In this document: positions 1,329 to 59,700 of the stretch, piece by piece
Position numbering within the stretch: position 1 is the first letter of the stretch
Layout: every line of letters starts with the position of its first letter
NCBI RefSeq assembly: GCF_001598915.1
Contig: NZ_BDAP01000005.1
Coordinates: forward strand, 62,001-126,000
Direction of reading: 5' to 3'
DNA: 64,000 bases
DNA from: Williamsia muralis NBRC 105860
Lineage (GTDB): Bacteria; Actinomycetota; Actinomycetes; Mycobacteriales; Mycobacteriaceae
Position numbers and translations under genes: made by a program
The notes under the pieces: model-generated
What the model saw: the letters and a program-made list of their open reading frames with translations, nothing else
Told to the model about the DNA's origin: nothing
The model's database searches: none

Positions 1329-4070
1329 TCAGTGCGCGGCCTCGTCCCATGACCGGCCGTAGCCGATCGATACGTCCAACGGCACCGACAACTCGATCGC
1401 CCCACCCATCTTTGCGCGCACGAGCGACTCCAGTTGCTCTTTCTCACCCGGCGCGACCTCGAACACCAACTCGTCGTGCACCTGCAGCAACATGCGCGAC
1501 GTCAGGTTCTGTTCTGCGAGCGCTCGTTGCACATCGATCATGGCGACCTTGATGATGTCGGCCGCCGTGCCCTGGATGGGCGCGTTGAGCGCCGCTCGCT
1601 CGGCGACGTCGCGCCGTTGCCGGTTGTCGCTGTTGAGGTCGGGCAGGTAGCGACGGCGACCGAACAAGGTGGACGTGTACTCGTTGCGGCGGGCCTCTTC
1701 GACGGTTTCGTGCAGGTAGTCGCGCACCCCGCCGAACCGGGTGAAGTAGGCCTCCATCTGTTCTTTGGCTTCGCTCGTGCTGATCTTGAGCTGCGCCGAC
1801 AAGCCGAAGGCACTCAGGCCGTACGCAAGCCCGTAACTCATCGCCTTGACCCGTCGGCGCATGTCGGGGGTGACCTCGTCGATCGGCACGCCGAAAGCAC
1901 GAGATCCGACGAAGCTGTGCAGGTCCTCACCGGTGTTGAAGGCCTCGATCAATCCGGCGTCGCCGGACAGATGTGCCATGATCCGCATCTCGATCTGGCT
2001 GTAGTCGGCGGTCATCAACGTCTCGAAACCCGAACCCACGACAAATCCTTGGCGGATCTGACGGCCGGCATCGGTACGGACCGGGATGTTCTGGAGGTTC
2101 GGCTCGGTGGACGACAACCGTCCGGTCGCCGCGATGGTCTGGTTGAAGGTGGTGTGCACCCGTCCGTCGTCCGAGACGGACTTCAGCAGTCCGTCCACCG
2201 TGACCTTGAGCCGTGTGGCGTCGCGGTGCGCCAGAAGATGTTCCAGGAACGGGTGCCCCGTCTTCTCGAACATCGCGAGCAGCGCATCGGCGTCGGTGGT
2301 GTACCCGGTCTTGGTCTTCTTGGTCTTGGGCATCTCGAGTTTGTCGAACAGTACGACCTGCAATTGCTTGGGCGATCCCAGGTTGATCTGCTCGCCGATC
2401 ACCTCGTAGGCCGCTTCCGCGGATTGGCGCACCCGCGCAGCGAATCCTGACTCGAGATCCTCGAGATGTGCTGAATCGATGGCGATGCCGGCTGCTTCGA
2501 GTTCGGCCAGGACAAAGAGCAGTGGCAGCTCCATGTCCGTCAGGAGCGAGGCCGAGTCGATCTTCGCCAACTCCTCGTCGAAGCGGTCGGCCAGCTCACC
2601 GACGGCTTGGGCCTGCAGCATCGCCTGGTCGGCCGCGGCCTGTGCGCCGGAGTCCTCGTCGAGCAACGAGAGCTGACCGTCGTCGGGGGCCGCATCCGCG
2701 CGCAGTTCACGCCGGAGGTACCGCAGGGCGAGGTCATCGAGGTTGAACGATCGTTGCCCGGGACGAACCAGATAGGCAGCGAGCGACGTGTCACTGGTGA
2801 CCCCGCCGAGACGCCAGCCCCGACCCCGAAGTGCGTGGAACGCCCACTTGGCCTCGTGGATGGCTTTGGCGGCGTTGGTATCGGCCAGCCAGTCGGCGAT
2901 CGCGTCTTCGTCTGCCGGCCCGATCTCGGCAGGATCGAGGTAGGCCGACTCGCCATCGGCCGCAGCGATCGCGATGCCTGTGACGTCCGACCCGTAGACC
3001 TGCCGGGGCCCGACAATCGTGAGGCCTGCCCGGCCGGTGCCGGGCGCCGCGTGCGCGGCGAGCCAATCCGCAACCTGGCCCGCGCCGAGCTGGCTGCCCC
3101 GAAGATCGAAACCCGACTCGGCCTCAGGCTCTGCCGAGGTGAGGGTGGTGAACAACCGGTCGCGCAGCACCCGGAACTCGAGGTCGTCGAACAGCTGGTG
3201 AATCTGGTTGCGGTCCCACGGTGCCAGCTGCAGGTCGTCGGGACCGATCGGGAGGTCCATGTCACGGACCAGCTCAGTGAGCTGGCGGTTCATCTGAACA
3301 CTGGCCACGTGGGCGCGAAAGGCGTCGCCCACTTTGCCTTTCACCTTGTCTGCGTTCTCCACCAGACCTGAGAGCGATCCGTACTCCCGGATCCACTTCG
3401 ACGCGGTCTTCTCCCCCACACCGGGAATGCCGGGGAGATTGTCCGACGGGTCTCCGCGCAGCGCGGCGAAGTCCGGGTACTGCGACGGCGTCAGTCCGTA
3501 CTTCTTCTCCACCTCTTCCGGGGTGAACCGCGTCAACTCTGAGACGCCGCGTTTGGGGTAGAGAACGGTGACGTTGTCGGTCACCAGTTGCAGCGCGTCG
3601 CGGTCACCGGTGACCACCAGAACGCGGAAACCCTGCTCCGCTGCCTGGGTGGTCAACGTGGCGATGATGTCGTCGGCTTCGTAACCCTCCCGGGCCAGAA
3701 CCGGGATGCCCATCGCCCCCAGGACGTCCTTGGTGAGGTCGATCTGGCCACGGAATTCGTCAGGCGCCGAGCTGCGCTGCGCCTTGTATTCGGGGAACAC
3801 CTCTGCACGGAACGTCTGCCGCGACACGTCGAAGGCCGCTGCGATGTGGCTCGGGTTCTCGTCGCGCAGCAGGTTGATCAGCATCGAGGTGAACCCGTAC
3901 ACGGCGTTGGTGGTCTGACCTGATGCGGTCTTGAAGTTCTCGGCGGGTAGCGCGAAAAATGCGCGGAACGCCAACGAGTGACCATCGAGCAGCATCAAGG
4001 TCGGCTGCTGCGCCTTGGACGCTGATTTCGCCGATGTACGGCCGGGTTTGCTGATCTGGGCAGGACTCAC
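1329..4070 (-). CDS. polA: DNA polymerase I
   Basis: A 913-residue family A DNA polymerase for Okazaki-fragment processing and repair. The N-terminal 5' nuclease domain (MLLDGHSLAFRAFFALP; EGYEADDIIATL; GDPSDNLPGIPGVGEKTA) is complete. The polymerase domain has motif A (DYSQIEMRIMAHLSG, about residue 687), motif B (RRRVKAMSYGLAYG, about 737) and motif C (QVHDELVFEV, about 864). In the middle 3'-5' exonuclease-like domain I cannot find the DxE metal pair at the expected place, consistent with proofreading-deficient actinobacterial Pol I. GTG 4070 (peptide start VSPAQISKPG) is preferred over an ATG 57 nt upstream, because the extra 19 residues do not resemble the family. The gene stands alone on its strand. 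Confidence 0.95.
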   Translation of the reverse strand: MSPAQISKPGRTSAKSASKAQQPTLMLLDGHSLAFRAFFALPAENFKTASGQTTNAVYGFTSMLINLLRDENPSHIAAAFDVSRQTFRAEVFPEYKAQRSSAPDEFRGQIDLTKDVLGAMGIPVLAREGYEADDIIATLTTQAAEQGFRVLVVTGDRDALQLVTDNVTVLYPKRGVSELTRFTPEEVEKKYGLTPSQYPDFAALRGDPSDNLPGIPGVGEKTASKWIREYGSLSGLVENADKVKGKVGDAFRAHVASVQMNRQLTELVRDMDLPIGPDDLQLAPWDRNQIHQLFDDLEFRVLRDRLFTTLTSAEPEAESGFDLRGSQLGAGQVADWLAAHAAPGTGRAGLTIVGPRQVYGSDVTGIAIAAADGESAYLDPAEIGPADEDAIADWLADTNAAKAIHEAKWAFHALRGRGWRLGGVTSDTSLAAYLVRPGQRSFNLDDLALRYLRRELRADAAPDDGQLSLLDEDSGAQAAADQAMLQAQAVGELADRFDEELAKIDSASLLTDMELPLLFVLAELEAAGIAIDSAHLEDLESGFAARVRQSAEAAYEVIGEQINLGSPKQLQVVLFDKLEMPKTKKTKTGYTTDADALLAMFEKTGHPFLEHLLAHRDATRLKVTVDGLLKSVSDDGRVHTTFNQTIAATGRLSSTEPNLQNIPVRTDAGRQIRQGFVVGSGFETLMTADYSQIEMRIMAHLSGDAGLIEAFNTGEDLHSFVGSRAFGVPIDEVTPDMRRRVKAMSYGLAYGLSAFGLSAQLKISTSEAKEQMEAYFTRFGGVRDYLHETVEEARRNEYTSTLFGRRRYLPDLNSDNRQRRDVAERAALNAPIQGTAADIIKVAMIDVQRALAEQNLTSRMLLQVHDELVFEVAPGEKEQLESLVRAKMGGAIELSVPLDVSIGYGRSWDEAAH

Positions 4071-4288
4071 GACGCAAGTGTATGGAGCTTCGCCGACAGT
4101 CCCGGCAAGACGCCTCACCAAAACCAATTTTCTCGGCGTCGAACCAGCTCACAAAGGCGAGTTACTCAACAGTAACTCGGGGGAAACATAGAAACCCTGC
4201 CGCGAGTCCTCGGTGGTTATAGGGTCGCCAAACGAGATGTTCGCGCGGCAAAGTGCCGCGCGCCGACCACCTTCGGGAGGATTCACGC
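4071..4288. promoter_or_regulatory. polA/liv divergent region with two perfect inverted repeats
   Basis: Intergenic space between divergent polA and the liv operon. It contains GAGTTACT-CAAC-AGTAACTC (4159-4178), an 8-bp perfect inverted repeat of operator size, and GCGCGGCA-AAG-TGCCGCGC (4243-4261), a strong hairpin just before the livH ribosome site GGGAGG (4275-4280). The first could bind a regulator; the second would lie in the 5' leader of the transporter mRNA. No cognate regulator gene is adjacent, so function is inferred. Confidence 0.45.
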
Positions 4289-5614
4289 GTGATGCCCCGT
4301 CATGCTCAGCGAGCACGGGTCTTGGGAGCCAAGTTAGGGGCAGGCGCTCTCCTGACCTTGCTGGCATCGCTTCTACTTGCCGGGATAGTCGGCACCGGAA
4401 GCGCTGTCGCCACCCCAGCTCCATCTTCAGACGACACCGTCCGGGTGTTCGGAACGCTGCGAAATGGTTCCGATCCCGTCGCAGAAGTGAAAGTCGACGC
4501 CAAAGACCAGGCCGGCGCCGTGGTCCAATCGTCCACCTCCTCCGATACCGGGGCGTGGACGATGAACCTGCCGCCCGGCACCTATTCGGTGGTGATCGAC
4601 AAGTCGACCATCCCGAGTGGGGTCGAGGTACAGAAAGACACCGTCGCGGTCACGGTCACCGCCGGCTCTCCACGGCCGGTGATCTTCCTCTTCGGTGAGG
4701 AGCGCACCGCCACGGAGATCGGCGCCGCCGAGGAACTCACGCGGCTGGCGATCGACGGTCTGAGATTCGGTCTCATCATCGCGATCACCGGTGTCGGCCT
4801 GAGTCTCATCTTCGGCACCACCGGGCTGACCAACTTCGCCCACGGCGAGCTGGTGACCCTGGGTGCGGTGGTGGCCTGGGCGATCAACGTCAAACTCGGT
4901 GTCCAGCTGATACCGGCGACCATCCTGGCGATCATCGTCGGCATAGGTGTCGGAATACTCAACGAACTCGGCATATGGCGACCGCTGCGGCGCCGCCGAT
5001 CCGGACTCATCGCGATGCTGGTGGTGTCGATCGGATTGGCGCTCATCATGCGCTACGGGATCCTGATCTTCTTCTCCGACCGCGCCGAACCTTTCGACGA
5101 CTACCAGGTGCAAACGCAGATCGGTTCCGGCGCCTTCGCGATCACCCCGGTCAACCTGTGGTGCATCATCATCAGCCTCGTGGTGCTGCTGCTGGTGGCG
5201 CTGATGCTGCAGAAGACACGGATCGGCAAGGCCATGCGAGCCGTCGCCGACAACCGCGACCTCGCCGCATCGTCCGGCATCAACGTGGACCGCGTCATTT
5301 TGTTCGTCTGGGCCTTGTCAGGCGGTCTCGCAACCCTCGGCGGCGTTCTCTTCGCGATGTCCGAACTCGGTGGCCGTGTCCAATGGGAGATGGGTTTCAA
5401 ATTGCTTCTGCTCATGTTCGCCGGCATCACCCTCGGCGGACTCGGAACGGCCTACGGCGCGCTGCTGGGCTGTGTGATCGTGGGCCTTCTGGTCCAGGTT
5501 TCCACCTACTGGATCAACCCCGACCTCAAGTACATCGGTGGCCTTCTCGTTCTCATCGTCATTCTCACCATCAGACCCCAGGGCATCCTCGGGTCCAGAG
5601 CGAGGATCGGCTGA
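4289..5614 (+). CDS. livH: Branched-chain amino-acid-type ABC permease LivH with N-terminal extracytoplasmic domain
   Basis: A 441-residue membrane protein. Residues about 5-40 form a signal-like hydrophobic segment. About 45-145 form an extracytoplasmic carboxypeptidase-regulatory-like beta domain (VRVFGTLRNGSDPVAEVKVD, TGAWTMNLPPGTYSV). From about 150 comes a standard LivH permease: GLIIAITGVGLSLIFGTTGL, NFAHGELVTLGA, IGKAMRAVADNRDLA, GLGTAYGALLG. It would form the channel with LivM for amino acids or similar amides. GTG 4289 is 8 nt after GGGAGG (4275-4280); ATG 4292 is the alternative. livM follows after 3 nt. The beta domain is not part of the basic LivH family and may assist substrate capture (inference). 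Confidence 0.9.
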   Translation: MMPRHAQRARVLGAKLGAGALLTLLASLLLAGIVGTGSAVATPAPSSDDTVRVFGTLRNGSDPVAEVKVDAKDQAGAVVQSSTSSDTGAWTMNLPPGTYSVVIDKSTIPSGVEVQKDTVAVTVTAGSPRPVIFLFGEERTATEIGAAEELTRLAIDGLRFGLIIAITGVGLSLIFGTTGLTNFAHGELVTLGAVVAWAINVKLGVQLIPATILAIIVGIGVGILNELGIWRPLRRRRSGLIAMLVVSIGLALIMRYGILIFFSDRAEPFDDYQVQTQIGSGAFAITPVNLWCIIISLVVLLLVALMLQKTRIGKAMRAVADNRDLAASSGINVDRVILFVWALSGGLATLGGVLFAMSELGGRVQWEMGFKLLLLMFAGITLGGLGTAYGALLGCVIVGLLVQVSTYWINPDLKYIGGLLVLIVILTIRPQGILGSRARIG

Positions 5615-5617
5615 CTC

Positions 5618-6607
5618 ATGGATCTCATCTCTGCACTTCAGACCTCGTTTGCCCAATTGATCGGTCCTTCAGCGGTTTTCTATGCGCTGCTGGCGATCGG
5701 GCTGAACCTGCACTTCGGCTACGCCGGGTTGCTCAACTTCGGTCAGATCGGCTTCGCCCTGCTCGGCGCCTACGGCGTCGGCATCATGGCCGACAACTAC
5801 GACCAGCCGCTGTGGGTGGGTGCGATCGTCGGCATCGTCGCCGCCGCGATCTTGGCCCTTGTGCTCGGTTTGCCCACGCTTCGATTACGGGCCGACTATC
5901 TGGCCATCGTGACGATCGCGGCGTCGGAGATCTTGCGACTGGTCTTCCGGTCCACCGCCTCCGACGACCTGACGCACTCGACCAACGGCATCTTCGGATA
6001 CGCGGACGGGTTCTTCGACTACAGCCCGTTCGACAACGGCAAGCAGTACTCGTTCTTCGGCGTCAAGTTCCAGGGCACCGACCTCTGGGCGATGGTGGTC
6101 GGCTGGGCGATCGTGCTGTTGCTCTGTCTCCTGGTGTGGCTGCTCGTGCGCAGTCCCTGGGGTCGCGTCCTCAAGGCTGTTCGTGAGGACGAGGACGCCG
6201 CCCGGTCGCTGGGTAAGAATGCCTACTTCTACAAGATGCAGGCCCTGGTGCTCGGTGGTTGCATCGGTGGCGTGGCGGGTGTGTACAACGCGCTGCAGAC
6301 CCAGTCGATCAACCCCGACTTCTACTCCACGGCGCAGACCTTCTTCGCCTACGGAGCTTTGATTCTCGGCGGCGCCGCCACGGTATTCGGGCCGGTTGTC
6401 GGCGCGATGCTGTTCTGGTTCCTGCTGGCCATCCCCGACGCCTTGCTGCGTCAGGTCACGTCCGGCCCCGACCCCTGGTTCGAGATGACGCAGCAGCAGG
6501 TCGGCGCCACCCGTTACGTCTTGTTGGGATTGGCGATAGCCCTGATGATGGTCTTCAGACCGCAAGGAATCCTCGGTAACAAGCGAGAGGTCCAGCTCGA
6601 TGCCTGA
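5618..6607 (+). CDS. livM: Branched-chain amino-acid-type ABC permease LivM
   Basis: A 329-residue polytopic protein with LivM hallmarks: FYALLAIGLNLHFGYAGLLN, FGQIGFALLGAYG, LRADYLAIVTIAASEILRLV, WGRVLKAVREDEDAARSLGK, and the terminal RPQGILG. It pairs with LivH to form the transmembrane pore. It lies 3 nt after livH and its last 8 nt overlap the start of livG, so translation of the operon is coupled. Length is normal for actinobacterial LivM. Confidence 0.93.
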   Translation: MDLISALQTSFAQLIGPSAVFYALLAIGLNLHFGYAGLLNFGQIGFALLGAYGVGIMADNYDQPLWVGAIVGIVAAAILALVLGLPTLRLRADYLAIVTIAASEILRLVFRSTASDDLTHSTNGIFGYADGFFDYSPFDNGKQYSFFGVKFQGTDLWAMVVGWAIVLLLCLLVWLLVRSPWGRVLKAVREDEDAARSLGKNAYFYKMQALVLGGCIGGVAGVYNALQTQSINPDFYSTAQTFFAYGALILGGAATVFGPVVGAMLFWFLLAIPDALLRQVTSGPDPWFEMTQQQVGATRYVLLGLAIALMMVFRPQGILGNKREVQLDA

Positions 6608-7721
6608 CGGACGTCACACACAGCCCCCCGGTCCCGACGGTCCCGGATCGGCCTCCGAACCCGGCATCGGGGTGGATGCCTCGACCCTGGTGACCGAGGC
6701 TGCCCCGGCCACTCTTGCCGAGTTGAAGGCGTTCAGCGCGGCCGAGCGTGCCGAACTCTTCGCTGGTGTCACCGCCGAACCAGGTTCGGCCAAACCCGAC
6801 CCGATCATCTCGGTGGACAACATCACCCGGACATTCGGTGGCCTCAAAGCCGTCGATGTGAAGCACCTGGAGATCCAACGCGGATGCATCACAGGTCTGA
6901 TCGGTCCCAACGGGGCGGGCAAGACCACGTTCTTCAACTTGATCACCGGGTTCGACAAGCCCGACACGGGTAGCTGGTCGCTCAACGGCAAGCACATGGG
7001 AAGGGTTGTGCCGCACCGGGTTGCCCGCAACGGCATGGTGCGTACCTTCCAGCTCACCAAGGCGCTGTCCAAATTGTCGGTACTCGACAATGTGCGGCTC
7101 GGTGCTCGTCACCAGAGCGGCGAGCACATGCTGCAGGCGTTGGCGCCGTGGACGTGGCGCAAGCAGGAGGCCGAAACCACCGAGCGTGCATACGAATTAC
7201 TCAAGCGGTTCAAGCTCGATGCCAAGGCCGACGACTACGCGGGCTCGCTGTCGGGTGGTCAGCGCAAGTTGCTGGAGATGGCACGCGCGTTGATGACCAA
7301 TCCCGAGGTCGTCATGCTCGACGAGCCGATGGCCGGGGTGAACCCGGCGTTGACCCAGAGCCTGCTCGAACACATCAAGGCGTTGCGCGATGAGGGTATG
7401 ACCGTGGTGTTCGTCGAACACGACATGGACGTCATCCGCGACATCAGTGACTGGGTGGTGGTGATGGCACAGGGCAAGGTGATCGCCGAGTCACTCCCCG
7501 GCCGCCTCGGCGACAACCCGGCGGTGGTCGATGCGTATCTGGGCGGCCACCACGATCAAGCGCTCGAGTTCGACGAGGACGGTAACCCGGTCGGCGAAAC
7601 CGCCGTGCTGGCAGAGCAGGTCGAGGCCGCGATCGAAGAAACCCTCCAAGCCGGCGGAGACCTGTCGCAGCCCGACCCCATCACTCCGTCCACCTCGCAC
7701 GGAAAAAAGGACAAACCATGA
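6600..7721 (+). CDS. livG: Branched-chain amino-acid-type ABC transporter ATPase LivG
   Basis: A 373-residue ATPase that is longer than the usual LivG (about 255). Residues 1-64 are a low-complexity extension. The ABC domain runs from about 65 with Walker A GPNGAGKTT (about 101), signature LSGGQRK (about 216), Walker B VVMLDEP (about 236) and the H-loop FVEHDMDVI. After LGDNPAVVDAYLGG an acidic tail of about 60 residues follows. It energises LivHM as partner of LivF. Start ATG 6600 overlaps livM by 8 nt, and its end overlaps livF by 4 nt. The N-terminal extension could be shorter if an internal start is used. Confidence 0.92.
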   Translation: MPDGRHTQPPGPDGPGSASEPGIGVDASTLVTEAAPATLAELKAFSAAERAELFAGVTAEPGSAKPDPIISVDNITRTFGGLKAVDVKHLEIQRGCITGLIGPNGAGKTTFFNLITGFDKPDTGSWSLNGKHMGRVVPHRVARNGMVRTFQLTKALSKLSVLDNVRLGARHQSGEHMLQALAPWTWRKQEAETTERAYELLKRFKLDAKADDYAGSLSGGQRKLLEMARALMTNPEVVMLDEPMAGVNPALTQSLLEHIKALRDEGMTVVFVEHDMDVIRDISDWVVVMAQGKVIAESLPGRLGDNPAVVDAYLGGHHDQALEFDEDGNPVGETAVLAEQVEAAIEETLQAGGDLSQPDPITPSTSHGKKDKP

Positions 7722-11089: not shown

Positions 11090-11163
11090 GCCCCCGTAGC
11101 CCAATTGGCAGAGGCAACGGATTCAAAACCCGTCCAGTGTCAGTTCGAGTCTGACCGGGGGCA
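11090..11163 (+). tRNA. tRNA with anticodon CAA (formally tRNA-Leu) but a class I fold
   Basis: The acceptor stem GCCCCCG pairs with CGGGGGC. A D-arm with GG in the loop, an anticodon loop UUCAAAA (anticodon CAA), a perfect T-stem GUCAG/CUGAC with loop UUCGAGU, and an encoded CCA (11164-11166) follow. The variable region is only 5 nt (CCAGU). CAA decodes the Leu codon UUG, yet bacterial tRNA-Leu normally has a long variable arm. The anticodon stem has one A-C mismatch (positions 31/39). Its 3' half is the left attachment site of the adjacent island. Confidence 0.8.
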
Positions 11164-11171
11164 CCACGCAG
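11122..11171 (+). repeat. Left direct repeat (attL) in tRNA 3' half
   Basis: From TTCAAAACCCGT to ACCACGCAG; 49 of 50 positions match 16689-16738. The single difference is A (11154) versus G (16721), which falls in the T stem. Confidence 0.9.
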
Positions 11172-11437
11172 CCGCTGAAAGCTTTGCGCAGGACTTGCTA
11201 GTAGACCCCGGTATGAAGTGGGTATCCAGAAGATTTGACGAGAGCCCGTTTCGGGCGGCCAAATCACCCACAGTTCGCAGCGCGACGCATCGACACACGC
11301 AACAGCAACTTCGAGCACTAGTACGCAGCTGCGCAGGCAATATCTCACCCCGTAGGCACCGCGGACGCCAGCTACCTTTCGAGAGTCCTAGCTTCGTAGG
11401 TATCCGGAGCAATGCCGCCCTCGGCCGTGACAGGCTG

Positions 11438-12037
11438 ATGGGAATGGATCGTCCACCAGACGCAACAAAGGCACGGGTGGTTGCCGATGCGTGCGCAGCA
11501 CTGAGCAACGACGACCCGTCCCGCGCAAGCGCGACCCTGCGCGCCGGGTCCCCGTTCGTACCGACGACGAAGGTGGCGCGGAGATACACCGAGCGCAAAA
11601 GTTTGCGGGTGTTCTATCGAGATGGATTCATCGACCGGTACAGCGGCGCCCAGCTCGTCCACCCCGGGCGCGCTACGGTCGCTGTCCATCTTGCTACCCA
11701 ATGACTTTCCAGCTCATCCAAATTGGGACATGAGCAAAAGTTACTTCGATTCTGCGAGGTGTTCCCGCCTATCACCACCTTGTGCCTGTCGCCCGCAGCG
11801 GTATCGACGACGACTCGAACTGGGTCACCACCTCGAAGCTCCGCAACTCGGCCAAAGCCCAGTGGGCGTTTGAGCAGCTAGGCGGCCATTGCTCGCCGCC
11901 GGCACATCGCTGTATGGGATGGGCTGGCGAACTGGTACGTCAACTCTCTTGTTGACCGACCACAGCTCCGCCAGGAGCACCCGTACTTACGACGGTGGTT
12001 CACTGCGACAGTCGCAGTGCAGTCAGAGTTGCGTTGA
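11438..12037 (+). pseudogene. HNH endonuclease, disrupted by multiple single-base indels
   Basis: Conceptual joining of all three frames gives a full HNH protein. MGMDRPPDATKARVVADACA through VFYRDGFIDRYSGAQLVHPG is in frame 1, then LRSLSILLPNDFPAHPNWDM in frame 2, then HHLVPVARSGIDDDSNWVTT in frame 3, then AVWDGLANWYVNSLVDRPQL and a natural TGA at 12037. The DH-x-VPVA, N-W-VTTS and R-N-x-x-K elements of the HNH core are all visible. Lesions I can place are an extra C in CCACCCC (about 11663), a lost T near 11755, a lost base near 11773 and two losses near 11882-11905. No in-frame nonsense mutation is needed, so recent decay or sequencing error both fit. Probably the island's former nuclease. 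Confidence 0.75.
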
Positions 12038-12732
12038 TCCGACTGCACGTTCACGGATTTCAGAACCTCACCAGCCTTGGCGGTGCACCTACACAATGCA
12101 CTGAGTTGCTACTTGCAGGAATACCCACGTCTCCACACGGGACATCGCTAGTGGAAGTTGCGGACCGATGACCGCGGACGCTTAGTCGGCGGTCACGTCG
12201 TTCACCGGGGAGCGAGCAAGCCATGCGCCATGTGGACAATGCCCTGCGGCACATCGAGATTGCACAGATCACCAGAGATGGAGCTGGGCATAGCAATGGG
12301 AAACAATCCCCCGGACTGCGGAACCCGCTGCGCCGGTACCGTCCGTTACATCGCCGGGATTGCCCCCCCCTTTTTGCTGACTGCACGAGCCCAATCCACC
12401 GATTCAGGCCCTCAACGTCACCCAACTTCCCTTCGTCAGCCGCCTCGACACCACCGCAACTGCCAGGCTGCAACGCTTCCCTGCCTTGACTAGGTCTTGC
12501 TCAACGCTTCGCGTCGACCGCGCGATTGAGCGTTCACGGAGAGGATCGGCATCCAACATGGCATTAGCCCACGCGCATTCCTCCCAAGTACCTCGAACGA
12601 ATGAACCCGAGTGATTCATGCGTACTGCCAGTCGATTTCGGTACGATCTGTACCGGCACCCCGGGATCCAGACGCACGGAGCAATCCCGCCCTACTTTGC
12701 AAAGTAAGCCGCAGGACGAATTCGGAGGATCC
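12038..12732. other. Island spacer without a supported gene
   Basis: About 700 bp between the HNH remnant and the giant NTPase gene. Open frames here are short and none shows a convincing domain. A C8T5 homopolymer lies near 12364-12376. The promoter of the downstream gene should lie toward the right end; its ribosome site is at 12724-12728. Confidence 0.5.
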
Positions 12733-15700
12733 ATGGAGATCGACGGCGTTGACGTTCTGTTGCTCTGCGCTGTCCAGGTCGAATGGGAGTGCCTGAAGTC
12801 GTTGTTAGTCGACGCGACCCCAGATGCACGCCACAGCGATCCGGCGATTCGAGGACGAATTGAGGTCGACGGACGCAGCCTAAGTTCAGCACTCGTTGAG
12901 GTCGGCATGGGGCTGACCATTTCGGCCATGGCCACCCTCAAGGCTGTCGAAACCTATCAGCCCGCCCTCGTAGTCTTCGTCGGAATCGCCGGTGGAATTA
13001 AGGATGTAAGGATAGGAGACGTCGTAGTCGTTGACAAAGTCTACCCGTATGAGATTGGAAAGGTCGCAGACGGACAGTTTCAAGCGAGACCCGACACTCG
13101 CACCATACCGTCGAAACTCCTAAGCATCGCTCGAAAGCTCCGGGCGAACTTCTCCCCCAGTGAATATCGCCTTTTCATTGGGGCACTCGCAAGCGGCGAC
13201 AAGGTAGTAGCCGACATTAATTCCATTGAACTTGAGCGGATTCGCGCTCTCGGGGGCGATTCACTCGCCGTCGAGATGGAAGGGGCAGCGGTTCTCAGTG
13301 CCATCGACCGCGCCGATGTTACAGCCGATCACTTCGTAGTCCGCGGCATCTCCGACCTCATTTCCAACAAGTCCGAGACCGATGCCGAAGGCGGGCAGGA
13401 ACGTGCCATCGAGCATGCTCGCGAGACCACGGTTCGACTCATCGAGGCTTGGAATGCCGTCGCGCAAGCCGGGGTACCCGTCGAGGATCTGACGTCGGAT
13501 CTCCTGGCTGCTGGACTTCCGCTGCCTTCTCCCACCGAGTGCTATATCTTGATCGCGGTCCCAGCTTCGGCCCACGCAGAAGCAGTGGTCGCCAGTGGGC
13601 TGCCGATCTCGCTGGTCATCGATCTCAATCCCAGGTCCGACGAGGGAGGGCTTCTCGCGAGAACACGTTCTGACCTTGAGACTCGTAGGGCCGTTCACCT
13701 GGGTTCCCCGGAAAACCCGCCCCCGTTCGGTACAAGCTCGTCTGCTTGGGTGAGTGTGCAAGGTCTAGACCACCCGATAACAGATCTCCATAAGTGGACT
13801 CGCAACGTCCGTCGAACATGGCGAACGTGCCTTGCCACATTCGCCTCCGCTATCGGCGGACGCCGTATCACGATTCTCGTAACGGACGACAATGACGGCA
13901 CGTGGGACGGGTGGTGCGGTGCGCTGGTGGACGACCTGCTGACGGAGTTCGGGGAACGCGCATACGTCGGGATGCTCGGAACCGGCCGGTCTGTCGAATC
14001 GGACTTCCGACTCGCACTGCGCCCAGCCGAATTGGCAACAGCTCTATCCGCGATCATCCCTCTCGACCGGGCGTCGACCGCTCGCATGCTCCCCGGCGCC
14101 GGCGGGCTTGTTGAAATATCTGCGGTCGACGCAAGCTGGATCGAGGAGGACATAGCCATTTACTGGACCGCCGAGCCAGGCGGTACCGGTGCGGAAGCCG
14201 GGACTCTCGACTTCCTCAGAGGGGGCGAAATCACGCTCGCAGCGCTTGGCGCTAATGCGGACGTGAGCCGCGCCCAGGCGGCGTCGATCCAGAAACAGCT
14301 ACTCGGCATGCTCGGTGGCCGCCGGACATTACGCCTCAACCTGTTTCATGCGCCGGGCGCAGGCGGATCGACGCTTGCACGAAGGATAGGATTCAACATC
14401 CGTACCCAGTTCCCAGTCGTATTCCTGCGCCGATTCAGAGAAGCGGAAACGATCCGGCGAATCGAGTCGTTGAGTCGTCAAACTAAACACGCCGTCTTGG
14501 TCGTAGCCGAAGCCCCAGACGTTCGCGATGACCAAATCGCCGCGTTTATGAACGAGCTCCACTCGGTCTCGCTGCCCGCAGTCGTACTAGCCGTATCCCG
14601 CGCCTACAGCCCACCCTCAGCAGCGTCCTCCTCACCCTATATCGCAGAGGTTCTCAGTGATACCGAGGCGCAGGATTTCGTAGACAAGTACAGCGCAAAG
14701 AATTTCGCTGCACTAAAGACCTTACAAACAATCGCCGGCTACAACGACCATCGGCGAAATGCGTTCTACTTCGGTCTCGCGGCTTTCGAAGAGAACTTCC
14801 AGGGAATCGAACCCTTCGTCCGAGGTCGATTGGCAGGCGTAGAGGGTGCACAGCGCGAAGTCATGCTGGTATGCAGCATCGCCTACTATTTCGGACAATC
14901 CCCGGTTCCTGAATACGCGCTCGCCCGCATCGTCGGGCTTCCGCCATCCCGTTCGGGTGGCTTCGCGCGCATTCTTGCCCCTGAACTGCGCGGGCTGCTC
15001 TGGCGGTCAGAAGAAGGTCAGTGGCGGACGACCCATCCGCTCGTGGCAGAAGAGATCCTCCGCCAGCTAGGCGGCGGTCACAATCTCTGGACGCAGGCGT
15101 TGTCGGGGTGGGGTCGTGTCTTCGCGGACTTCTGTCTCGACGGAGATGATGATGACGCAATGCATCAGCTCATCGCAAGCGTCTTTACTGAGCGTGACGA
15201 CGACGCCGCACAACCCGGGGTGAACCGGGAGAGTTTCGCCCGCCTTATCGAGAAAATTCCGTCGAGAGATGGAGCTTCCGAGCTATTGAAGTACCTCGCG
15301 GATCGTCAACCAGACAATCCGCACGTGTGGGCACACACGGCCCGTTACTACGCCTTTCGCATGGCACATTTCCAGACAGCAGAGACATACGCGAAACGTG
15401 CGAGTGCTCTCTCTCCAGATAGCTCCACGTTGCACCACATCCTGGGCATGGTTTACCGGTCACGAGTTTACGACGGCCTCGGGAGGAATGTGTCGCTAGA
15501 TGAGCTGTCGCCGTGGGTCGATGACGCCTCAAGGGAGTTCGAAATTTCCCGAGACCTGGCAGCGAGCACTAAAGATCACGGCTTCGTTAGCGAGATCCAA
15601 ATGAGAGTCAAGATAGTCGAGCACGCGATACGAGAGAGTTCTCTATCTAGCTATCTCAGGAACGCTCCGCACCAGCTCGTCGTTTCAAGCGTGGAAAAAG

Positions 15701-16536
15701 CCGAAGACCTAATGTCGACGCTGCGCTATCGAGGCGACCCGAGAAAGCCGAGCGGCTTCGAGCAGACGGAGCGCGCCAAGCTTAAACGCATGTATGGCGA
15801 CTTCTCAAAATCACTCCAACTCTTAGACTCTCTGCTTCAGAAGGGAACCGTCCCACTAGCGATCGTCCGTCGCCAACTGGTTTGGACCTACCTCGCACGT
15901 GTAGACCGAAATTGGCGAGCACTGCCTGCCAAGGACGTTAACCGTGTGGTCGCACTACTCGATGAGAATCTCACAGTAGACGGTTACACCTCATCCGATG
16001 CGTTAGCGTGGTGGCGCGCGGTCCGACTGAAAAACCCAGCCGTGTCCCACGAGCGAGTTAAGGAAGTCCTCGCGTACTGGCGGGAGTCGAACCCTTGCCT
16101 GGATGCCGAGTACTGCTCGTTCGTCGCCTACTCGCTCGATGTGCTCGCTGGACTACCCACCTCAGTTGCGAACGCCGCTAAGCACGCCCGCAGGAGTGCG
16201 GAGTTGGCGAGGAGCGAAGGCACTCGAACACGGTCAGTCGACTGGTACGGCGATGGGATGGGCATGGCGTCGCTTGTGCACCATTCTGAGCTAGGCCAAT
16301 GGGACCCAGCTCTCGATTTCTGGGCAGACACGTCGCGGCTCCGAATTGTCGAGGCGCGCATTAAGAAGATACGCGGGCCTCAGGCAGGTACTGCGGAGGT
16401 TTCCGGGGTGGATGCCTTTTTCGTTCCCCAGCGCGCCGGAGTTGTCCGCGGCCGTCACGAGAACGAACGCATACGAGGCTACCTAGCCTTTACACACGAC
16501 GGACTGCGGATTTGGGAGCCGACCCTAGTCGAATAG
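12733..16536 (+). CDS. MTAN/nucleoside phosphorylase - STAND-like NTPase - TPR - OB-like protein, candidate antiphage effector
   Basis: A 1267-residue protein. Residues 1-235 form a nucleoside-phosphorylase/MTA-SAH-nucleosidase domain with VFVGIAGGIKDVRIGDVVVV, EMEGAA (about 180) and RGISD (about 205), so the glycosidase site looks complete. After a linker comes a P-loop-like segment LFHAPGAGGSTLARR (about 540) in which the Walker A lysine is replaced by glycine, a strand ending AVLVVAEA (about 588), a helical/winged-helix part ending THPLVAEEIL, TPR-like helices (NPHVWAHTARYYAF, about 862) and a C-terminal module GVDAFFVPQRAGVVRG (about 1225). The order resembles SAMD9-like STAND proteins and fungal PNP-NACHT-type receptors. 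PNP-family effectors that destroy ATP are known in CBASS, Avs and Detocs; a similar role is inferred. Start: ATG 12733 after GGAGG (12724-12728), beginning MEIDGVDVLLLCA. Confidence 0.85.
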   Translation: MEIDGVDVLLLCAVQVEWECLKSLLVDATPDARHSDPAIRGRIEVDGRSLSSALVEVGMGLTISAMATLKAVETYQPALVVFVGIAGGIKDVRIGDVVVVDKVYPYEIGKVADGQFQARPDTRTIPSKLLSIARKLRANFSPSEYRLFIGALASGDKVVADINSIELERIRALGGDSLAVEMEGAAVLSAIDRADVTADHFVVRGISDLISNKSETDAEGGQERAIEHARETTVRLIEAWNAVAQAGVPVEDLTSDLLAAGLPLPSPTECYILIAVPASAHAEAVVASGLPISLVIDLNPRSDEGGLLARTRSDLETRRAVHLGSPENPPPFGTSSSAWVSVQGLDHPITDLHKWTRNVRRTWRTCLATFASAIGGRRITILVTDDNDGTWDGWCGALVDDLLTEFGERAYVGMLGTGRSVESDFRLALRPAELATALSAIIPLDRASTARMLPGAGGLVEISAVDASWIEEDIAIYWTAEPGGTGAEAGTLDFLRGGEITLAALGANADVSRAQAASIQKQLLGMLGGRRTLRLNLFHAPGAGGSTLARRIGFNIRTQFPVVFLRRFREAETIRRIESLSRQTKHAVLVVAEAPDVRDDQIAAFMNELHSVSLPAVVLAVSRAYSPPSAASSSPYIAEVLSDTEAQDFVDKYSAKNFAALKTLQTIAGYNDHRRNAFYFGLAAFEENFQGIEPFVRGRLAGVEGAQREVMLVCSIAYYFGQSPVPEYALARIVGLPPSRSGGFARILAPELRGLLWRSEEGQWRTTHPLVAEEILRQLGGGHNLWTQALSGWGRVFADFCLDGDDDDAMHQLIASVFTERDDDAAQPGVNRESFARLIEKIPSRDGASELLKYLADRQPDNPHVWAHTARYYAFRMAHFQTAETYAKRASALSPDSSTLHHILGMVYRSRVYDGLGRNVSLDELSPWVDDASREFEISRDLAASTKDHGFVSEIQMRVKIVEHAIRESSLSSYLRNAPHQLVVSSVEKAEDLMSTLRYRGDPRKPSGFEQTERAKLKRMYGDFSKSLQLLDSLLQKGTVPLAIVRRQLVWTYLARVDRNWRALPAKDVNRVVALLDENLTVDGYTSSDALAWWRAVRLKNPAVSHERVKEVLAYWRESNPCLDAEYCSFVAYSLDVLAGLPTSVANAAKHARRSAELARSEGTRTRSVDWYGDGMGMASLVHHSELGQWDPALDFWADTSRLRIVEARIKKIRGPQAGTAEVSGVDAFFVPQRAGVVRGRHENERIRGYLAFTHDGLRIWEPTLVE

Positions 16537-16915
16537 GAACGGAGGATCGATCGGGTGTGCAGAGGGTATGCAGGCACCGTGAACACAGTCACATACGACC
16601 ACCACCAGTAAACACTAATACCGCTCCCCACTTAATAATTCACAACCGCCAACAACACCACCAGCTAGCAACCTTCCGCTCCCGCAAGTTCAAAACCCGT
16701 CCAGTGTCAGTTCGAGTCTGGCCGGGGGCACCACGCAGCAAGGTACTTGTCGAAGATTGCTACCCGCGCTCCCATGGAGCTTCGTACGCTCAGGTCTAAG
16801 CAAGCGACTGGAACGTGCCGGCGGATGTCAGCAGTCTCGGCCGAGCCGAGAACCTCCCCGACTCCGGCCGTGCCACCGGCCGAGCCGTCACCGATGCGGG
16901 TAGTGTCCATGCATC
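16537..16915. other. Right end of island and spacer to the MarR gene
   Basis: Non-coding by inspection. It holds an A/T-rich stretch (about 16600-16680), the right repeat (16689-16738) and the promoter region of the MarR gene. No separate gene is supported. Confidence 0.5.
16689..16738 (+). repeat. Right direct repeat (attR), partial tRNA copy
   Basis: This copy keeps the anticodon loop, 3' anticodon strand, T arm, 3' acceptor strand and CCA. The upstream DNA (CTCCCGCAAG) does not complete a tRNA, so it is not a second gene. Confidence 0.9.
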
Positions 16916-52318: not shown

Positions 52319-53359
52319 CTAACGCAGCGGCGCCGTTGCGAACTCACGAAGGCCGCGCTCAGGCATGATCGTCGCTTGAAATCCGAGAACTGCTGCCGCT
52401 CGCGCTGGATCGGCGACGATGTGGCGGACGTCGCCCGGCCGGTACTGCCCTGTGGTCACCGGTGGCGAGCCCTCGATGCCGGCGGTCAAGGCACTGGCAA
52501 CTTCTTTGATCGATACAGGGCGTCCTGAACACACGTTGAATGCTTCGAACGCACCCGAGCCGTCGGCATCTGCTCCGAGCCGTTCGATGGCCGCGAGATT
52601 GGCTGCGGCGATATCGGCCACATGGACGAAATCACGCATTTGGCCCCCGTCCTCGAACACCGAGGGCGGCTCGCCTGCCTCGAGCTGGGACCGGAAGATG
52701 GCAGCAACCCCCGCATAGGGGGTGTCACGGGGCATGTGCGGGCCGTAGACATTGTGATAACGCAGCGCCGTCACAGCTCCACCGGTCTCGAGCGACCAAG
52801 CACGGCAATATGATTCCTGCGCGGCCTTGCTCGCGGCATAGTAACTACGCGGCGCAATCGGCGCGTCCTCTGAGGTCAGTGCCCATTGAGCTGGCTCACC
52901 GTCGGCCAGATACCTCTCGAACCTCCCTGACTCGAGATCGACAACCGAACGCGGCGGTGGAGTGACCACCGCGCCGGCCTGATCGCGATAGGTGCCGTCC
53001 CCGTACACCACCATCGACGAGGCAAGAACCAATCGCTTGCAACCGATTTCGAACATCGCCGACAGCAGTCGTGCGGTGACGAGATCATTGTCGGCGGCAT
53101 AGTCAGGCGCATCGCGCGCATCGACACCTGCGCCGACCCGGGCTGCTTGATGGCAGACCACGTCAACGCCCTCCAGTAGCTCGGTGAAGGACGCCGTCCG
53201 GAGTTCGGCCACCCGCACACCGTCGGGGGCGATGGCGCCATGTCCGTGCGCTGCCGCCAGCATACCGTCAACCGCGACCACCTCGTGGCCGCCCGCGATC
53301 AGGGAGGACATGATGTGGGAACCGATGAAACCTGCGGCCCCCGTGAGCAGAACTCGCAT
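52319..53359 (-). CDS. NAD-dependent sugar epimerase/dehydratase
   Basis: A 346-residue extended SDR: LLTGAAGFIGSHIMSSLIAG, active-site Ser region LVLASSMVVYGDGTY, YYAASK motif, RYHNVYGPHMPRDTPYAG, and MRDFVHVADIA. It resembles the GalE-like Rv0536. It likely makes a nucleotide sugar for the nearby glycosyltransferases. ATG 53359 overlaps the MTA phosphorylase stop (TGATG); GTG 53362 is possible. Convergent with the kinase gene, 2 nt apart. Confidence 0.9.
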   Translation of the reverse strand: MRVLLTGAAGFIGSHIMSSLIAGGHEVVAVDGMLAAAHGHGAIAPDGVRVAELRTASFTELLEGVDVVCHQAARVGAGVDARDAPDYAADNDLVTARLLSAMFEIGCKRLVLASSMVVYGDGTYRDQAGAVVTPPPRSVVDLESGRFERYLADGEPAQWALTSEDAPIAPRSYYAASKAAQESYCRAWSLETGGAVTALRYHNVYGPHMPRDTPYAGVAAIFRSQLEAGEPPSVFEDGGQMRDFVHVADIAAANLAAIERLGADADGSGAFEAFNVCSGRPVSIKEVASALTAGIEGSPPVTTGQYRPGDVRHIVADPARAAAVLGFQATIMPERGLREFATAPLR

Positions 53360-54162
53360 CACGAATCGACCTTCATCACCGACGAGATGTCGTGTTCACC
53401 TTTCGCACAGGAACATTCAGGTTGCGACGCGGCCCCGGCAATCGCCGCCACGAGGACTTCGCGCAGACGCTCGAGTCCGCGTTCGAAGACCGCGAACACT
53501 TCAGAGGTGGTGACACCTTCCCCCTCCACCAAGCCGGCATCGGTGTCGGTGACCAAAGCGATGGCGGCGTAACACATTTTCAGTTCGCGGGCCAAGACTG
53601 CCTCGGGATGTCCGGTCATGTTCACCAGCGCCCAACCCTGCCGGGCATACCACTGGCTTTCCGCACGGGTCGAGAACCTCGGCCCCTCCACGACCACCAT
53701 CGTTCCCTCGTCGACGGCCTCCGGTGCGGCGCTCCCGGCAACACGGCGCAAGGTCGGACAGTACGGGTCGGCGAATCCGACGTGGACGGCCGAGCCGTCG
53801 AAAAACGATTGAACACGAGTGGTCGTGCGGTCCACGAGCTGGTCAGGAATGACCATCGTGCCCGGTGCAAGCTCGGTGCTCAACCCACCGACCGCGCACG
53901 GCGCAAACACCTGCCTCACCCCCACCGACCGCAGAGCCCACGCATTCGCGCGGTAAGGAACGGTGTGGGGTGCGAACTCATGTGCCATTCCATGCCGGGG
54001 CAAGAAAGCCACCGACACTCCACCGACGTCGCCGATAGTGATCGCGGCACTCGGCTTGCCATACGGGGTCTGTACTTCGACCTGCTCGGTTCCGGCGCCG
54101 AAAAACGAATAGAAGCCGGTACCGCCGATCACACCGATGCTGGGACGCGGATAAGAGCTCAT
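53359..54162 (-). CDS. mtnP: S-methyl-5'-thioadenosine phosphorylase
   Basis: A 267-residue trimeric-type PNP/MTAP: IGVIGGTGFYSFFGAGTEQ, phosphate site FLPRHG, VGGLSTELAPGTMVIPDQLV, TMVVVEGPRFSTRAESQWYA and NMTGHPEAVLARELKMCYAA, ending in DTDAG. The NMTG...E stretch favours methylthioadenosine over plain purine nucleosides. It recycles MTA from polyamine or other SAM-dependent routes. ATG 54162 (MSSYPRPSIGVIGG) is chosen over an ATG 21 nt upstream. It forms an operon with the epimerase as in M. tuberculosis Rv0535-Rv0536. Confidence 0.92.
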   Translation of the reverse strand: MSSYPRPSIGVIGGTGFYSFFGAGTEQVEVQTPYGKPSAAITIGDVGGVSVAFLPRHGMAHEFAPHTVPYRANAWALRSVGVRQVFAPCAVGGLSTELAPGTMVIPDQLVDRTTTRVQSFFDGSAVHVGFADPYCPTLRRVAGSAAPEAVDEGTMVVVEGPRFSTRAESQWYARQGWALVNMTGHPEAVLARELKMCYAAIALVTDTDAGLVEGEGVTTSEVFAVFERGLERLREVLVAAIAGAASQPECSCAKGEHDISSVMKVDS

Positions 54163-54404
54163 GGCACCAGCCTGCATCACCACATGCGGTCGGGCACCCC
54201 CCAGAGCGCCAACGTCACAAATCCGTCATCACGAAGGATGCCGATGATCTACCAGGACCCCTGGTGCTCGTGCACATCGCCCGAACCGATGATCACAAGT
54301 GTCTATGCGTTGCGGTCGAGTTCGGCACACTGGCTTCAATCAAGGCGATCCCAGTGTCGGTTTCGGAGGTATGACATCACGAATAGCCGAGTCAAGCGCT
54401 GGTG

Positions 54405-56221: not shown

Positions 56222-56705
56222 AGCGTCCCCTAATGAGTCAACGTAATCACCGATAAGCCGCCCTTATGTCAGGTAGTCCGGTTCCCATCAGGCGCACGTT
56301 CCCGATAGTTTCGCACCCCACTCGACGAAGGCCGCGAGACCGCACGGGTCACGCGAGAACTGATACGTCACGACATTGTCGGCGCAAACAGTTGCGGTGC
56401 ACGACAGCCCCGCAACCGGCGACGAAGAGCAGCCTGATCGCAAGCAGATGACGCGGACTATCCGACAGTTCAGTGCTGACGGCGAACCAACGTCTCGTAT
56501 TGCCCAACTACGCGGGCTTTGAACGTCCGCGAGGATGCGGAGCGTCACGGGCGCCGAGGCTTGGGAGGTCTCTTGGCACCCTGCTGCGGTGACACGGGCG
56601 CAGGCTTGTCGATCAGGCTGGGTGTCTCCAGGTTGAATGGAGGCAAGGATCGATTCCCGACGGCGGTACCGGCACGATCGGGTTGAGCGAGAAGGAGCGA
56701 GCCCG

Positions 56706-59700
56706 TTGCCCGAGAGCCGTCACCGCTACCTCTACGAACGTCTCGGAGACCACGACTTTCAACAGCTCGTCAGCGCGCTGCTTGCGAGCCAGTTCCCGGA
56801 CTATCTCCCTATGGCGCTTCGCCAAACTGACGGCGGCATCGACGGTTTGCGCAACATCGACCCCGAAACGCTGCTCATCTACCAGGTCAAGTGGTCAGCC
56901 AGCGGTACGAATAAGAACCCAATTAGCTGGCTGGACGGGGTCGTCAGGAAGGAATTGGACAACCTGCGCCGATTGGCCGAGGAGGGCGTTCGTCACTACG
57001 TCCTGGTAACCAACGTGGCGAGCACGGCTAAGCCCGAAACCGGCACCTTCGTCCAGGTCGACAGCAAACTCAAGGCGTACGCGAAAGACCTCGGCTACGA
57101 CCAGATGACCTGCATCTGGCGCGAGGCGCTCAACCCTTGGGTCGACAACGCACCGACTGAGACCAAATGGGCCTATGCAGAGATGCTCGCGGGATGGGAT
57201 CTCATCCGGTTCCTGGTCGCTGATCAGGTCGGAGCGACCAAGAACCGAGCGGATCGCAAGCTAATCCGGCAGGTCGCCGCAGCGCAGTGGGACGACGACC
57301 AGCGGGTCAAGTTCAGCCAAGCTGAGGTGGACCGGGAGAGAATGGTGGACCTCTTCGTTGACGTGACCGCCGACCTGATTCACTCGCCGCCGAGCATCCG
57401 GCTGCGATCCTCCCTCCATACGTCTTCCCTCGGCGGGGCGGCCGCGCACTTACTGAATGCGCCGACACCGTTCACATTGGTCCGCGGCGCTCCCGGGCAG
57501 GGGAAGTCGACGCTCAGCCAATACGTCTGCCAGGTGCACCGCGCCGCATTCGTACCAGGGGCGGAGCGGACCGAAACCTTGCCTATCTTGGAGAATCCTC
57601 GGTTCCCGATCCGACTGGACTTGAGCGACTACGCACTGTGGCTTGCCGGCAATAACATCTGGGACCACTCAGACGACCGCAAGTCAAGGAGGGGGAAAGC
57701 CCCAAAGGGCGAGCAGGCGACGATCGAGTGCTTCCTTGCCGATCTAATGACACACGAGAGTGGTGGTATCACCACCACCGTCGGAGTGGTCCAGGACATC
57801 TTTGAGCGAGTTCCCAGTCTCGTCGTTCTCGACGGACTCGACGAGGTCGGCAGCGTGAGTATTCGGCGCAAGGTGGTCAAGGAGATCGACGCGTTCGCCG
57901 GCCGGGCGAGGACCTATACCGTCCCACTTAAAATGGTTGTGACTACGCGCCCCAGCGCCGGTGAGCTTCCGGAGCCGGCGTCGGACAAGTTCGAGATCAT
58001 CGCCCTAAACCAACTGACGGGCGAGCAGCAGGCTGATTACTTGCGCAAGTGGTGCGCGGTCCGGGGAATCCGAAGTGGGGACGGCCGAGCGTTGCGGAGG
58101 AGCTTCAACGAGAAGAGCCGCGAGCCGTACATCCGCGAGCTTGCCGGAAACCCTATGCAGCTCACGATCCTGTTGGACCTCCTGCATCGGCAAGGGGCAG
58201 CCACACCCACGCAGCGGACTGACCTTTACGACGCGTATGTCGATTTGCTCCTGGCCCGGGAGGCGAACAAGCACCCTAAAGCCGTTCGCGACCACAAGGA
58301 CGAACTCCTCGAAATCATCCCGTTCCTTGGTTGGTATCTCCAAGCCCACACCGAGGAATCCCAGATCAACGGCCGCATGACTGTAGATGAGTTGAAAGCG
58401 GCCATGCGCCACTTCCAAACCACCTACGGCAACCGCGAGTCGATCGTGGATGAGCTCTTCGAGGGCGTCAGCGACCGCCTGTGGGCACTCACCAGCCAGG
58501 TGGAGGGCACCTATGAGTTCGAGGTTCTGTCGTTGCGAGAGTATTTCGCTGCCCGGTTCCTCTACCGTAACGCCGGCGAGGACAACCCCCACTTCGACAA
58601 CACGACGGTACTTCGAGAACTCCTACGTCGCCCGTACTGGCTCAACACCGCCCGGTTCTACGGGGGTAACGCGAAGGGCAGTGATTTATACGTTCTGGCG
58701 GCCGGGATCGATCAGGAACTGGCAACTGCTTCTGTTCCGGCGCCCTACCTCGCCTCCTGGGCCTTGTTAACCGACGGCGTCTTCCAGCGCCGGCCGCACG
58801 AAGCACGCAAGGTGCTAACGGCACTCTGCTCAGATGTAGGTATCGCGTTCCTGCTGTCCGCGCTGGACCGTCGCGACATCGTCGCCTTGCCCGAACTGCC
58901 TAGCCCCACCGACGGCGATGGCGATCCCACCTGGACGCGCCTGACGATGTTGATTAGGGCAGATCCCGAGGACCCGGCGAACCCACAGCGTGTGCGCGTT
59001 CTTCGGGAGCTACTCAACCAGGGCACCGAGTTCACAACATGGTGGCACGAGCAGCTCTCCGCAGCGATCGGCACCGCACACCAGAACGCGTGGCTCGCCA
59101 TAGGGGCCTGCTGCGAGGCCGGCGCAGGGATTGCCGCAAACTTCGAGAACATGGACCTCTCAGGCGACGGCGCCGAACTCTTCCTCAGCACGGGGCTCAT
59201 CCCGGAGGCCGAAAGCCCCATCGAGACAGCCCTGCTCAACGCAGTGCTCAACGGAGAGTGCCCCTGCGTAACTTCCATCCGTTCCATGCCGGCGCAGGTC
59301 GCGGCCACCCTCGCCCCCGGAGAGTTCCTGACCACCTCCGATGCCGGGTTCATATCTGGCGACGATAGGGCCAAACGCCGCAGGAACGAAGCGATCAACC
59401 AGCTACGAAAGGCCCACTCACCGTGGGAGCAGATCGGCAAAAAGCGTGCATTCAGTACTGGCCACAGGGGCAGTACGTTCCCTTGGACAAATACCGCCGC
59501 GGCGGTGCATGAGCACACCGGTGGCTGCTGGATCGCCTCGGAGATCGCAATCATCGGTGCTGCGTCGCCATTCCGACCCGGATACGCAAAGAGGCCTGAG
59601 GTCAACGCATTCGGGCGCGGTGCCCATCCATCGGTACTCCATGCTCAAGTTCGCACGAACGAGAGCAATGTGAGCTGGTGGCGTGAGCAGCTGAACACCA

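Follow-up and report, generated by a model that had tools for sequence, protein, structure and literature searches.

A nucleosidase domain joined to a SAMD9-type core in a protein carried by a tRNA-Leu element of Williamsia muralis

We analysed a 64,000-nucleotide stretch of the genome of Williamsia muralis NBRC 105860 (contig NZ_BDAP01000005.1, positions 62,001 to 126,000; hereafter the window) and, within it, one large gene lying in a small element inserted at a tRNA-Leu gene. Its product carries an MTAN/PNP-type nucleosidase domain (the head) followed by a core made of a SIR2-like domain, a STAND NTPase without the P-loop lysine, tetratricopeptide repeats (TPR) and an OB-like end (Table 1). 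The open reading frame (ORF) is open throughout from 12601 to 16536 on the + strand, and the ATG at 12733, preceded by a Shine-Dalgarno sequence (GGAGGA, 12724-12729), starts a product of 1267 amino acids (aa), so that the intact gene of this length described in the initial annotation stands. The motifs named there were found as well: EMEGAA and RGISD at residues 181-186 and 204-208 of the nucleosidase domain, and GAGGST, instead of GxGK[ST], at residues 542-547. We considered a frameshifted relic and rejected it, and a chance origin of the domain layout is ruled out because colinear homologues over about 1000 aa exist in several phyla. Outside the head, Pfam gave nSTAND_NTPase5 over residues 493-623 (1.3e-4, 22.3 bits, cut-off 34) and a weak TPR_14 match below cut-off; a GGDEF_2 match (residues 347-435, E 0.0027, below cut-off) inside the SIR2-like part was taken as chance.

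The head matches PF01048 over residues 11-237 (7.9e-19) with 68.4 bits against a Pfam cut-off of 25.1, and its top PDB matches are methylthioadenosine/S-adenosylhomocysteine (MTA/SAH) nucleosidases (best 9.3e-12), which agrees with the PNP fold predicted for the N-terminus. The catalytic residues are intact: A13, E17, E181-M182-E183, R204-G205 and D208 are invariant in the window head and seven other PNP domains aligned with it (8/8). We take E17, E181-M182-E183, R204 and D208 to be Glu12, Glu172-Met173-Glu174, Arg193 and Asp197 of E. coli MTAN. The NCBIfam equivalog cut-offs were not reached for MTAN (70.2 versus 169 and 51.5 versus 73.8 bits), and a housekeeping MTAN identity was therefore rejected; the score of the futalosine hydrolase model (46 versus 124.7 bits) is likewise below its cut-off. 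The host genome holds separate PNP, MTAP, uridine-phosphorylase-like and nucleosidase genes. That the head is a duplicate of a host PNP gene was also rejected, BLAST being blank for three of the four host genes and at chance level for the fourth locus.

Plasmids, too, encode NB-ARC-TPR and AAA proteins that have PF01048 domains on their N-terminal side. On a Streptomyces anthocyanicus plasmid (L039, 5968-8814) the order is PNP - NB-ARC - TPR in a protein annotated merely as a TPR protein, and on a Leptolyngbya plasmid (L040, 5923-8883) two tandem PNP domains precede an AAA_16 NTPase, beside genes annotated as TPR proteins. A YExGK stretch (residues 106-110) is common to the window head and the three PNP domains of these two loci, its last position being K or R in 6/8 aligned PNP domains; a different sequence stands there in the three MTAN alignments examined. 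In an ORF of genome G201 (L044, 6872-10072) a PNP domain is followed by a long linker rich in Gly and by what looks, by eye, like a solute-binding/vWA-like part. In the literature, PF01048 is tabled as a (deoxy)adenosine triphosphate ((d)ATP)-degrading effector in CBASS, Detocs, pAgo, DRT8 and NLR-like systems (PMC10952713), the activity of PNP-type effectors is described as (d)ATP cleavage (PMC11249213), and PF01048 domains are also effectors of fungal NLRs (PMC9815663, PMC10197012).

Beyond the head, the protein is specifically SAMD9-like. The window protein matched human SAMD9 in phmmer at 1.3e-6, and profiles matched it at 1.3e-13 (two rows) and 9e-43 (a fifteen-row core alignment, A3). 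One row of A3, L047, is partial and was excluded from residue counts, which are given over 14 rows. The core model (1017 residues) has a mean predicted local distance difference test (pLDDT) of 82.6 and its best structural match is SAMD9, with model residues 5-1016 of 1017 opposite SAMD9 389-1589. The SIR2-like domain precedes the NTPase: the SAMD9 profile match starts there, and model residue 5 stands opposite SAMD9 389. After the NTPase, helices at core-model residues 587-912, with TPR chains among the fold matches, form the TPR array, and the C-terminal end is beta-rich and aligned as far as SAMD9 1589, the second A3-profile stretch being weak here (i-Evalue 19). The proposed layout, with a STAND-like middle region, TPR and a putatively OB-like end, is borne out by the model and its match to human SAMD9, and a SAMD9-like domain order, which the initial annotation had only mentioned, becomes the central result.

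In the SAMD9 family GG[TS] replaces GK[TS], together with a conserved upstream His (Mekhedov, Makarova and Koonin 2017, PMC5445408), so that the missing P-loop lysine is not an anomaly of the window protein. The view that the non-canonical P-loop leaves the switching mechanism unclear accordingly gives way to that of a known family signature. H539 is His in all 14 A3 rows holding the P-loop, and the lysine slot is Gly in 13 and Ala in one (L054), with lysine in none (0/14). The P-loop of L095, outside A3, reads HIPGAGGT. That of L054 reads GAGATT, with the second glycine also lost.

Other switch residues are kept too. In profile alignments R623 aligns with human SAMD9 R837, and R496-G497 with R685-G686 (SAMD9 numbering with an offset of 139, deduced from a chain length of 1450 and entry numbering ending at 1589). 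The titles of SAMD9 entries in the PDB name a 'loss-of-function mutant R837A' (9zjw) and a 'loss-of-function mutant R685Q/G686C/I968C' (9zjz). Among the 14 A3 rows, the R623 column holds R in 13 and K in one, the G497 column holds G throughout, and the R496 column holds R in 12, N in L046 and K in L051; L095 has T at the last of these positions.

A profile scan of genome contigs gave 14 core-bearing loci. Pfam scans covered the heads of ten of them and that of L051 (Gordonia soli), whose gene also appears as L005 and was scanned there; outside these scans stood L053, whose protein was read directly, and L058, which nearly duplicates L052 in the tree. Among full-length cores, that of a Deltaproteobacteria metagenome-assembled genome (L046) comes closest (33% over 1058 aa), and it has an SLFN_AlbA_2 head (PF04326, 9.2e-8). 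The Anaerolineae core L047 runs off a contig end, and L095, located where another contig of that genome ends, has an SLFN_AlbA_2 head as well (PF04326, 3e-8); from their adjoining profile ranges (30-476 and 465-1023), the two are probably halves of one gene. The remaining ten scanned heads match TCAD9 (6.9e-7 to 1.2e-16, 5/10 below the Pfam cut-off of 40 bits), some of them APH as well. A tree built from 15 cores puts the window protein with L046 and L047 in a 100/100 group, separate from the remaining 12; branching order inside this group is not settled by the tree and the window branch is long (1.87), which makes its exact place unsure. The same core thus carries different head domains among kin, and the nucleosidase takes the place that AlbA_2 holds in human SAMD9 and the nearest kin. 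Bacterial members of the SAMD9 family, notably in actinomycetes, are described with an N-terminal kinase domain in many cases, and the AlbA_2 head is typical of the family, yet lost in some members (PMC5445408).

Several features of these relatives were recorded in passing. Past the OB-like end, L051 and L053 carry an extension of about 150 aa, similar by eye to a small winged-helix domain and absent from the window protein. In L046, a 1390-aa ORF (2981-7150) that precedes the AlbA_2-headed gene by about 2 kb matches DrmMI (2.7e-61) and type IIG restriction-modification models. Five long ORFs (743-1112 aa) lie around the core relative in Mycolicibacterium chubuense (L054, 281-20126), and PADLOC was blank for them at E<=1e-5.

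The gene is the cargo of a mobile tRNA-Leu element. Two 51-bp direct repeats, 98% identical, bound it at a spacing of 5567 bp, and the sister genome G005 (96-97% identity over flanks of about 2.5 kb) has the empty site: at the junction a left-hand match of 469 bp (98.3%) meets a right-hand one of 406 bp (91.4%), the two overlapping by 48 bp. All nine genomes of the genus contain the tRNA-bearing upstream flank and one of them, the window genome, the gene; the downstream flank is joined to the tRNA flank in the window genome and G005, and lies on a separate contig in G001, G004 and G007. GC content at third codon positions is 0.645 in the gene, as against 0.749-0.852 in nine other ORFs of the window, and no other ORF above 200 aa lies wholly within the element. 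Beside the same tRNA in four genus members (L081-L084), Pfam named nine of ten ORFs as transporter, redox, chaperone, EAL, NmrA or DUF222-HNH, one being matchless, and we do not call the tRNA-Leu site a defence hotspot. In one of these members (G007, L084 2613-4037) an open DUF222-HNH gene directly follows the tRNA-Leu, where the window element has an apparent broken HNH gene.

Table 1. Features of the window protein gene and of the element that carries it (window coordinates).
Feature	Position	Strand	Basis
tRNA-Leu (anticodon CAA), insertion site	11090..11166	+	ARAGORN
Left 51-bp direct repeat (att-like), overlapping the 3' part of tRNA-Leu	11122..11172	+	Repeat search, 98% identical to partner
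Probable remains of a broken HNH-endonuclease-like gene, about 0.4 kb	11590..11960	+	By eye, stop-interrupted frames; no family search made
Intact gene, 1267 aa: MTAN/PNP - SIR2-like - lysine-less STAND - helical/winged helix - TPR - OB-like	12733..16536	+	ORF, Pfam, structure model
MTAN/PNP-type nucleosidase domain, residues 11-237	12763..13443	+	PF01048 7.9e-19, MTAN structures
SIR2-like alpha/beta domain, about residues 266-460	13528..14112	+	A3 profile versus SAMD9; model aligned to SAMD9 and EfAvs5 SIR2-STAND
FLRGG motif, residues 494-498	14212..14226	+	Alignment to human SAMD9, PDB 9zjz title, column counts
STAND NTPase and following helical/winged-helix region, about residues 510-830	14260..15222	+	Pfam, profile, model
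Lysine-less P-loop HAPGAGGST, residues 539-547	14347..14373	+	Motif position, column counts, family signature (PMC5445408)
TPR-type helical repeats, about residues 835-1162	15235..16218	+	Model helices, TPR chains among fold matches, weak TPR_14
Beta-rich C-terminal OB-like domain, about residues 1165-1267	16225..16533	+	Model strands, SAMD9 end-to-end range, weak second profile stretch
Right 51-bp direct repeat (att-like), end of the 5.57-kb element	16689..16739	+	Repeat search; empty site in sister genome

The gene is sporadic in the genus and island-borne, and does not have the housekeeping distribution that would have spoken against the initial annotation. Whole-genome searches met few core relatives; they scored few candidates per genome in sampled genomes, so that some may have been missed and each count is a minimum. 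With the window protein, at least 3/396 genomes of the phylum were matched, two of them PNP-only, and with A1 at least 1/396, the host's own genome; in the family the figure was at least 4/201, with the core in the own genome and G523 and two PNP-only matches. Searches with A5 gave at least 2/348 in the order (own genome and G1322) and at least 1/235 in the phylum of G928 (G928 itself). No relatives were found in viral contigs scanned with profiles A1, A2 and A4, or in genome contigs scanned with the single window protein; tblastn of plasmids and phages gave PNP-domain matches only (7 and 1 records), and PHROGs returned nothing at E<=0.01. Counts obtained with PF25199 were discarded, as it matched 380/394 genomes and 14/14 controls (over cut-off 45/394 and 0/14), which mostly reflects P-loops; one of 30 loci from that scan (L021) held a core relative by BLAST.

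We compared the protein with known systems. Human SAMD9 (PMC5445408; PDB 9zjr and related) shares with it the SIR2-like domain, the lysine-less P-loop with upstream His, the TPR and, putatively, the OB-like end, but the window protein is without SAM and the AlbA_2 tRNase and has MTAN/PNP in the effector slot. AlbA_2 and kinase are the heads named in PMC5445408, and in its main text 'PNP', 'phosphorylase', 'nucleosidase' and 'MTAN' do not occur. Kinase-type bacterial SAMD9 proteins (Gordonia soli L051, Streptomyces L053 and others) have the same core, with 22-26% identity in A3 and the same P-loop type; they differ in a TCAD9/APH kinase-like head, in a C-terminal extension in several and in their separate 100/100 branch. 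The PF01048 domain is common to the window protein and the PNP effectors of Detocs, CBASS (Cap17), pAgo, DRT8 and NLR-like systems (PMC11249213, PMC10952713), whereas in the window the PNP is fused to a SAMD9-type core and no partner gene was seen in the element. The three-gene set of Detocs is absent from the element, which has one ORF above 200 aa, and from the scanned neighbours, none being two-component genes; for CBASS, the element lacks a second ORF above 200 aa, and of ten neighbours scanned nine have names without a cyclase and one is matchless. At E<=1 PADLOC matched the window protein with PDC-M60C (9.7e-17) and the PN-superfamily 'Effector' (3e-12), both on the N-terminal domain, and with no Avs/AVAST family. 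The core model does match Avs5 (SIR2-STAND; EfAvs5 9jap, PaAvs5) over model 5-781 versus chain 17-849 at 10% identity, but this match begins near the N-terminus of Avs5, which leaves no added head like the window PNP. By the features tested, the window protein itself is not CBASS, Avs or Detocs. The lysine-less core, bacterial SAMD9 proteins, PNP effectors and PNP in NLR-like systems are already known. The combination of an MTAN/PNP head and a SAMD9-type core was absent from the open PMC literature searched, in which neither a PNP-SAMD9 pairing nor a bacterial SAMD9 defence system was named in the titles and abstract starts among the matches listed; an earlier report elsewhere is possible.

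Because of what is known of SAMD9, PF01048 effectors and STAND-TPR proteins, we think it probable, if by no means certain, that this is a bacterial SAMD9-core immune sensor contained in one protein. SAMD9 is antiviral, its N-terminal AlbA_2-type domain cleaves tRNA-Phe and its C-terminal half is thought to autoinhibit (PMC13245274), and STAND proteins with TPR sensors are restrained by NOD-sensor contacts (PMC6468293). The C-terminal TPR/OB-like part would sense infection or damage, the putative trigger, and the SIR2-like/lysine-less STAND core would relay the signal through a change of shape or of assembly, possibly oligomerisation, that switches on the MTAN/PNP domain. Once active, the head would cleave a purine nucleotide at its N-glycosidic bond, with (d)ATP as the likeliest substrate, and the cell would stop growing or die before phage maturation, a presumed defence against phage.

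Several results weigh against this scheme. The PNP-SAMD9 pairing was met once in everything searched, which does not show recurrence of the exact fusion; the Arg at R496 is not retained in the AlbA_2 kin (L046, L095); and the single-sequence structure prediction of the PNP domain had a mean pLDDT of 33.6 and was not used. The element contains no recognisable integrase. Its ten neighbour ORFs, the ones scanned for Pfam domains in a window not scanned as a whole for defence genes, are transport, metabolic, DNA-polymerase or MarR in nine cases and matchless in one, and ten neighbour ORFs of the kin L046 and L054 gave a single PADLOC match, DISARM/type IIG methylase-like, near L046. The putative (d)ATP substrate is assigned from sequence, and the same architecture and defensive role might serve a head that cleaves MTA/SAH, nicotinamide adenine dinucleotide (NAD)-related or signalling nucleotides instead. 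The nearest solved relatives and best NCBIfam models being MTA/SAH nucleosidases, with futalosine hydrolase also matched, gives this alternative a real, if clearly minor, chance; yet the scores lie far below the MTAN and futalosine hydrolase equivalog cut-offs, YExGK recurs in the PNP domains on the STAND/AAA proteins L039 and L040 and is absent from the three MTAN alignments, and the genome already has separate PNP, MTAP, uridine-phosphorylase-like and nucleosidase genes.

It is improbable that the protein has a regulatory role that does not involve phage, such as switching in stress or development, which was proposed in 2017 for kinase-type bacterial SAMD9. The transcription activator MalT counts for such a role. 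MalT is a STAND protein with a TPR sensor (PMC6468293), and signal transduction was inferred by Mekhedov and coauthors for the kinase-type bacterial members (PMC5445408), but no DNA-binding output domain was found in the window protein, its head is a catalytic-type nucleosidase, the gene is sporadic (1/9 genus genomes) on a mobile element, and its animal kin are antiviral (PMC13245274). Very improbable, finally, is a recently inserted, unexpressed or inactive relic: the element has no recognised integrase and an apparent broken HNH gene, seen by eye, but the gene itself is open over 3.8 kb with a Shine-Dalgarno sequence and keeps its catalytic and switch residues.

Extending the immune-sensor reading to its kin, we suggest tentatively, at somewhat less than an even chance, that bacterial SAMD9-core proteins are a family of immune receptors with exchangeable heads (tRNase, nucleosidase or kinase) on one lysine-less STAND-TPR-OB sensor. 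If so, the virus-sensing core of animal SAMD9 would be indifferent to the kind of toxic head under its control, and the human protein's AlbA_2 tRNase would be one choice from an older prokaryotic repertoire of heads. SAMD9 and SAMD9L are important in human antiviral immunity and inherited disease, and little is understood of the switching of their sensor half. The bacterial protein, whose core shares the lysine-less switch but whose enzyme head is different and easily assayed, is a tractable system for questions about the signal that this core perceives, the mechanism of switching in the absence of the P-loop lysine and the ability of the core to drive any head.

Elsewhere in the window, a 1142-aa ORF (56637-60065) has no PDB sequence match at E<=0.001, and a second PF01048 gene (53359-54183) scores over cut-off as S-methyl-5'-thioadenosine phosphorylase.

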